From an uncultured Pelagibacteraceae bacterium (GTDB lineage: Bacteria; Pseudomonadota; Alphaproteobacteria; Pelagibacterales; Pelagibacteraceae), in the NCBI GenBank assembly GCA_902596745.1, contig CACJUZ010000001.1, forward strand, positions 124,001 through 188,000: DNA of 64,000 nt, read 5' to 3'. Positions 23,252-24,157 of this stretch are shown in pieces (position 1 is the stretch's first letter; every line of letters starts with the position of its first letter). Below the pieces are notes generated by a model. It saw only the letters and a list, made by a program, of their open reading frames with translations, had not been told where the DNA came from and made no database searches. Position numbers and translations under genes: made by a program.

Positions 23252-23878
23252 ATGAAAGTTAAATTATTAAATCTAGAAAGTACAAAATCTGAAACTATTG
23301 ATGTCTCGGACAAAATTTTGAAACATAAAATTAATTATAAGTTGATTAAATCAGTAGTAGATTGGCAATTAAACCATCTAAAACCAAGAACTGCTAAAAC
23401 TAAACAAAAAAATGAAATTAAGGGTTCAACAAAAAAAATTGTCCCTCAAAAAGGTAGTGGCGGAGCCCGACATGCAAGTAGAAAAGCTCCTATATTTGTT
23501 GGCGGTGGAGTAGCGCATGGACCTAAAGGTGCTGTTTATAAAATAAAAAAAATAAATAAAAAGGTAAGAAAGTTAGCTTTAGCTCATACTTTATCAAAAA
23601 AAAATTTTGATAAAAATTTGTTTGTTTTATCAGATGTAAAAAAAGAAATAAAAAAAACAAAGGAATTTAACAACTTTTTAAAAAAAAATAACCTTATGAA
23701 TGTTATTATAATATCTGATAAATAGACACTAAATAAATCAGCGAGAAATATTAAAAATTTAAAAATAATAAATGATGCTGGAGCGAATATTTACGATATG
23801 ATGAAATATAAAAATGTTTTGTTAACTCAAAGCTCAGTAAAAAACTTAGAGAAAAGGATTCTAAATGAAAAAAATTAA
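23252..23878 (+). pseudogene. rplD: 50S ribosomal protein L4, interrupted by an in-frame TAG
   Basis: The first 157 residues contain the L4 core, including PQKGSGGARHASRKAPIFVGGG and GPKGAVYKIKKINKKVRK. A TAG at 23723-23725 ends the frame. The same frame then continues without further stops as TLNKSARNIKNLKIINDAG to a TAA at 23876-23878, and that tail matches the L4 C-terminus. The full frame would give about 208 residues, the normal length. A single base change (TAG to GAG, AAG or CAG) restores it. L4 is essential for 50S assembly in well-studied bacteria, so a sequencing or assembly error is the simplest explanation. A genuine truncation of about 50 residues is the alternative. Confidence 0.8.
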
Positions 23879-24157
23879 TTATTTAGACTCCATAATAAGA
23901 CCAATTATTACTGAAAAAGCGACTATTCTTTCAGAACAAAATAAAACAGTTTTTAAAGTTCATAAAAAAGCTAATAAAAAAATATTAAAAAAAATATTGA
24001 AAAATTATTTAAGGTAAATGTTATAAAAGTAAATATAGTAAATTTAAAAACAAAGATTAAGTTGAAACAAGGAAGATTATCAAAAAAAAGTGGATACAAA
24101 AAAGCAATAGTAACATTAAAAAAAGGTCAAAGCATTGACCTTACAACAGGAATTTAA
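23865..24157 (+). pseudogene. rplW: 50S ribosomal protein L23, frameshifted in a poly-A run
   Basis: The ATG at 23865 opens MKKINYLDSIIRPIITEKAT, a clear L23 start. Near 23977-23983 a run of seven A's appears where eight are needed; the frame then ends at a TAA around 24015-24017. A -1 shift restores IEKLFKVNVIKVNIVNLKTK and the C-terminus to the TAA at 24155-24157, giving about 97 residues, a normal L23. The eight-A run just downstream could also serve as a slippery site. L23 lines the exit tunnel and docks trigger factor and SRP, so loss is unlikely; an indel error or poly-A slippage is more probable. It overlaps the extended rplD by 14 bases. Confidence 0.8.

Follow-up and report, generated by a model that had tools for sequence, protein, structure and literature searches.

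The rplC-rplD-rplW-rplB locus of the window, i.e., the whole stretch of 64,000 nucleotides analyzed here, contains an rplW gene, encoding L23, that loses its reading frame at a poly-A run. This raises the question of whether the gene is rescued in the living cell, by slippage on the run or by ribosomal frameshifting, or whether the loss of frame is a fault of the sequence data.

The rplW Gene Is Split Between Two Frames

The rplW gene of the window lacks a single open reading frame for L23 (PF00276): the ATG frame stops early, and the full C-terminal remainder of the protein is open in the -1 frame (Table 1). Both pieces match PF00276, each in its own frame, with 40.7 and 52.9 bits against a cut-off of 30.8. 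L23 is strongly conserved, and thus, the break goes beyond alignment noise. A preliminary description of this DNA had located the loss of frame at a run of seven A's followed a few bases on by a run of eight, and it was right in both respects; the interval that it gave, 23977-23991, falls on these runs, although its limits are a few bases off (Table 1). The addition of one A at either run restores an L23 of 97 amino acids, and a protein of the same length results if the ribosome slips by -1 at the A_AAA_AAA heptamer of the second run, in agreement with the earlier proposal that a -1 shift rebuilds the full L23. With repair at the A8 run, residues 40-41 read IL rather than NI.

Among relatives, the codons at the A7 site are AAA AAA AAT or AAA AAA ACT, among others. 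Loci L138 and L140, the closest relatives within the segments compared, have eight A's at this site, and therefore, the loss of one A is the likeliest event; since many relatives carry AAA AAA ACT, the lost base might also be a C. Judging from these alignments, seven A's in place of eight, as suggested before, is the best reading of the break.

The family search of the window's genome (G000; 1.02 Mb in 29 contigs) detected only the two rplW pieces at this locus and no second intact gene, and a DNA search for a second rplW found only short fragments elsewhere in this genome. With a completeness of about 87%, another copy could sit in the missing part of the genome.

Table 1. Coordinates of the features discussed in the text. 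Positions are those of the window unless a genome and contig are given.
Feature	Position	Strand	Remarks
rplD up to the premature TAG	23252..23725	+	157 codons; PF00573, profile 1-142
In-frame TAG in rplD	23723..23725	+	Glu codon in L138 and L140
Site of the 9-bp in-frame deletion in rplD	23729..23735	+	Place approximate; short direct repeat; compared with 39 aligned relatives
Remainder of the rplD C-terminus	23726..23878	+	Same frame as the 5' part; PF00573, profile 148-190
rplW 5' part	23865..24017	+	ATG frame, 50 codons, early stop; PF00276, profile 2-40
A7 run	23976..23982	+	Site of the one-base loss; A8 in L138 and L140
A8 run	23987..23994	+	Contains the in-frame heptamer A_AAA_AAA (23987-23993)
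rplW 3' part	23978..24157	+	-1 frame, stop included, start being the first codon given to Pfam; PF00276, profile 33-86; constraint in the -1 frame
Five frameshifts outside the window	G000:C1:20944, 70764, 95820; C10:1735; C8:17590		
Frameshifted genes of the assembly and their runs			PBP1A, T6; LolD-like ABC ATPase, T3; triosephosphate isomerase-like, A7; rplW, A7; pgsA, T8; TRAP permease, A8
Apparent frameshifts in G015 (dnaG, uvrC, greA, recO)	G015:C1:109530, 123800, 140950; C2:68340		

The Neighboring rplD Gene Carries Two Further Lesions

The rplD lesion noticed before is present, and it consists of an in-frame TAG and an adjoining 9-bp in-frame deletion, not of a frameshift. An L4 motif was sought in 53 relative loci and was present in 39, which were used for the comparison of the deletion: the three codons just past the TAG are missing in the window's rplD with respect to all of them (39/39). 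The L4 match spans 561 nt in the window, compared with 567-570 nt in the 85 other genomes of the genus whose match is near full length. When rplD is read through, it overlaps the start of rplW by 14 nt, and an early rplD stop would presumably also uncouple the two genes.

The rplD TAG lies about 250 bp upstream of the rplW lesion, and the three lesions (TAG, 9-bp deletion, and rplW indel) fall within about 260 bp. The chance that two of the seven lesions that we have accepted in this genome (see below) fall within 260 bp is 0.02. Such clustering fits a bad local patch of sequence, and it also fits a real decaying patch. The 9-bp deletion, located at a short direct repeat, has the look of a normal mutation and may be genuine.

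The Break Is Found in One of the Genus Genomes Searched

We have searched a set of 151 genomes of the genus, containing one genome per species. An rplW match was found in 93 of them (91 of the 92 others being over the cut-off), and none of the 92 other matched genomes (86 near full length and 6 partial) shows an internal stop in rplW, the window's genome being the only broken one. L4 is over the cut-off in 95 of the 151 genomes, a count that excludes two sub-cut-off matches (G144 and G001); the window's genome has one TAG in rplD, and the 94 others (85 near full length and 9 partial) have no stop. L23 and L4 are both present in each of the 12 genomes whose completeness reaches 90% and whose contamination does not exceed 5%, and the genomes without a match to one or the other are all outside this class. 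In addition, reading the frames of 56 other relative loci revealed no broken frame; two of these loci, L151 and L153, are truncated where their contigs end, and there is an overlap of at least five loci between the two sets examined. The rplW frames of relatives stay intact across runs of eight, nine, and ten A's, the last found at three loci (L016, L143, and L149), two of which belong to the same record. A conserved programmed frameshift in rplW is thus rejected, since 0/92 other matched genomes show the break.

With a break-prone locus in mind, we also counted the matches that are only partial, which we attribute to contig ends: they lie within rplD or rplW in 11 of 95 genomes. For rplB this is so in 7 of 98 genomes and for rpsC in 4 of 101, i.e., somewhat less often, but the differences are not significant (Fisher p 0.33 and 0.06, respectively, against rplD/rplW).

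The 37 L23 loci found in named genomes belong to records titled Pelagibacteraceae, Pelagibacterales, or Pelagibacter. The Pelagibacteraceae (SAR11) are a free-living marine lineage, and therefore, the premise of an AT-rich endosymbiont, from which the idea of a slippage rescue had been drawn, does not fit this organism. Concerning the origin of the data, two of the related records are titled SAG and many have AG-/AH- isolate names, which we take to be of single-cell style, but some are titled MAG, and this last point counts against a sequence error. If the window's DNA comes from a single amplified genome, every read would contain any error made early in the amplification.

Runs of Seven and Eight A's Do Not Look Slippery

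Frameshifted genes rescued by slippage were reportedly described in Blochmannia and Buchnera, the primary report being a PNAS paper of 2008. The rplW case resembles them in that the genome is AT-rich, the frame is lost in a poly-A run, and the gene is otherwise intact. It differs in that the neighboring gene carries a nonsense codon and the lineage is free-living. Besides, rescue of Blochmannia frameshifts is argued for tracts of at least nine bases that are kept across populations and species (PMC3017870), whereas here the run has seven A's and the break occurs in one genome only. Transcriptional slippage at the A7 or A8 run, adding an A to part of the mRNAs as proposed for these endosymbionts, would yield L23, and in E. 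coli and Buchnera, A/T runs are where most transcriptional insertions are found, their frequency growing exponentially as the runs get longer (PMC5574713). The same study also reports that no frame was restored by transcription error in the transcriptome-wide data of Buchnera (PMC5574713).

The run length at which depletion begins has been described as a sign of selection against slippage, and it differs between organisms (Baranov et al.; PMC1088944). In the 715 predicted CDS of the window's genome (ORFs of 120 aa or longer), runs of seven, eight, and nine A's appear 1229, 682, and 307 times, compared with 1086, 561, and 260 in synonymous shuffles, whereas runs of 10, 11, and at least 12 A's appear 75, 21, and 9 times, compared with 94, 30, and 28. 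Runs of seven to nine A's are in excess rather than depleted, and depletion starts at ten; therefore, by this indirect test on predicted CDS, A7 and A8 do not look slippery here. A run of at least seven A's is contained in 627 of the 715 CDS, and a run of at least eight in 478, so that slippage efficient enough to supply L23 would probably spoil most of the mRNAs of the cell. We noticed that the change between A9, above expectation, and A10, depleted, is sharp in the CDS of both G000 and a control genome, G021, and that in those of a second one, G015, A9 is at expectation and the longer runs are depleted.

Other facts also speak against slippage. It could not mend the nonsense codon of rplD, which is out of its reach, and two of the lesions found elsewhere in the assembly lie in runs (T3 and T6) that are too short for it. 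Moreover, the break is not kept across species, as seen in 0/92 other matched genomes of a set with one genome per species. The rescue by slippage, which the preliminary description held conceivable, is thus not supported, given runs that are ordinary and not avoided, a state that is not conserved, and neighboring lesions that slippage cannot cure, and we consider it extremely improbable.

Programmed -1 ribosomal frameshifting of the dnaX type offers another route to L23. The likeness to dnaX lies in a perfect in-frame slippery heptamer, A_AAA_AAA, at which a slip restores the protein; the differences are that here the heptamer is commonplace, its use is not conserved, and no downstream structure was found. 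In-frame heptamers of this kind occur 1528 times, in 546 of the 715 CDS, which is more often than in shuffles (1300). The 91 nt at 23990-24080 gave no stimulatory structure and folded worse than their shuffles (minimum free energy -0.7 kcal/mol, z +1.96), in a model that leaves pseudoknots outside. None of the 92 matched relatives needs frameshifting in rplW, and rplD would stay broken in any case. The probability of this explanation is, in our opinion, very small. Even when both routes are taken together, a rescue by slippage or frameshifting is very unlikely.

The Sequences Downstream of the Lesions Remain Constrained

The part of L23 encoded after the lesion has a pN/pS of 0.20 with respect to relatives, compared with 0.22 among the relatives themselves. 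Against L138, 49 of its 50 residues are identical with a pS of 0.51, i.e., 51% of the synonymous sites are different. Past the TAG, the tail of L4 shows 95% identity to that of L140, with a pS of 0.76. Compared with all relatives, its identity is 0.657, against 0.735 among relatives, and its pN/pS 0.34, against 0.25, which makes it the fifth most diverged of 37. A similar small difference is found in the part of L23 located before the lesion (pN/pS of 0.12 against 0.08). The downstream frames are thus constrained, having been in use until very lately if not to this day, and therefore, the lesions are either very recent or not real. This constraint fits an error, a very recent mutation, and a rescue alike, and it speaks against old pseudogenes. 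In particular, rplW is otherwise intact and under selection, as in known cases of slippage rescue, but this is equally expected of a sequence error. The somewhat greater divergence of the rplD tail with respect to relatives counts against a sequence error.

The Same Assembly Contains Similar Lesions in Other Genes

About 765 of the 1,021 kb of the window's genome have been compared with ORFs of relatives. The ORFs of G021 used as queries matched over at least 70% of their length in 569 of 781 cases, covering 530 kb, and seven of the matched genes are lesioned in the window's assembly: six by one-base frameshifts and one, rplD, by its TAG. All six frameshifts are located in A/T runs, of 3, 6, 7, 7, 8, and 8 bases, three of them being too long and three too short by one base (Table 1). 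The names of the lesioned genes were taken from the intact G021 queries, those of LolD and of the isomerase resting on matches below the curated cut-offs. When G015 provided the queries, 300 of its 411 ORFs matched and six were flagged, rplD, rplW, and pgsA again among them; the other three, stop calls in G000 at C1:213810-213831, C10:9037, and C2:83772, were left out, and so were most stop calls of the control genomes. Of the 10 genes first flagged in G000, five proved to reflect normal gene ends or the choice of an upstream start and were dropped.

The control genomes behave differently from each other. G015 shows four apparent frameshifts (dnaG, uvrC, recO, and greA), of which two or more lie in A runs. 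No frameshift was accepted in G021, as its sole call, C2:70885, is upstream of the likely start of the gene and was dropped; this genome contains one TAG inside a gene that, from its N-terminus, we take to be SMC-like. Therefore, the rate of lesions varies between assemblies, which counts against a sequence error.

Six frameshifts per 530 kb represent about 1.1 per 100 kb, a lower bound since only conserved genes were covered. For a single-cell genome workflow, the values reported per 100 kb are 3.0 indels and 5.0 mismatches (PMC11247762; same values in PMC8443664). The density found here is below this benchmark for indels, whose workflow may not be the one used for this genome. The assembly thus resembles a draft single-cell assembly with homopolymer indel errors in its one-base changes in A/T runs over conserved genes, in its nonsense change, and in a density within the benchmark, rplW being accompanied by five further A/T-run indels in 569 genes. 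It differs from such an assembly in the clustering of three lesions in about 260 bp, which is tighter than the genome-wide rate gives and also counts against a sequence error.

Origin of the Lesions

The lesions might be real and very recent mutations, private to one cell or clone and not rescued, the cell either dying or living on ribosomes made earlier. They are found in this genome alone among those searched, they are too young to show clearly in the part of the L23 frame that follows, and both the indels of one base in A runs and the 9-bp deletion at a repeat belong to natural types of mutation. However, a single viable cell would have to carry seven lesions at once in conserved genes, several of which we expect to be essential, and we regard this explanation as unlikely.

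We therefore favor a sequence error in a poor patch of the assembly, because this single cause explains all the lesions. Taken together, the data make it very probable that the rplW frameshift arose in this way in a draft genome. One A would have been dropped from a run of eight during amplification, sequencing, or assembly, and the same short patch would also hold a false stop in rplD and perhaps a false 9-bp deletion. The living organism would presumably have ordinary, intact rplD and rplW genes, and we infer that the data rather than the cell carry the errors. The suspicion of a local sequence error, which the preliminary description had based on the nearby rplD lesion, is now reinforced by the TAG and deletion in this gene, by the further lesions of the assembly, and by the intact rplW and rplD of the relatives.

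That the A7 run is real, and that the paired runs allow a free-living SAR11 cell to make L23, through slippage or a -1 frameshift, while it reads through the TAG of rplD, is a scenario to which we give almost no credence; if true, slippage rescue would reach beyond endosymbionts, into a free-living group that is among the commonest bacteria. For the essential genes of AT-rich uncultured genomes, this locus rather teaches that apparent frameshifts should be checked in relatives before any recoding is proposed, and that the lesion rate of the assembly itself is a second check needed before such claims.
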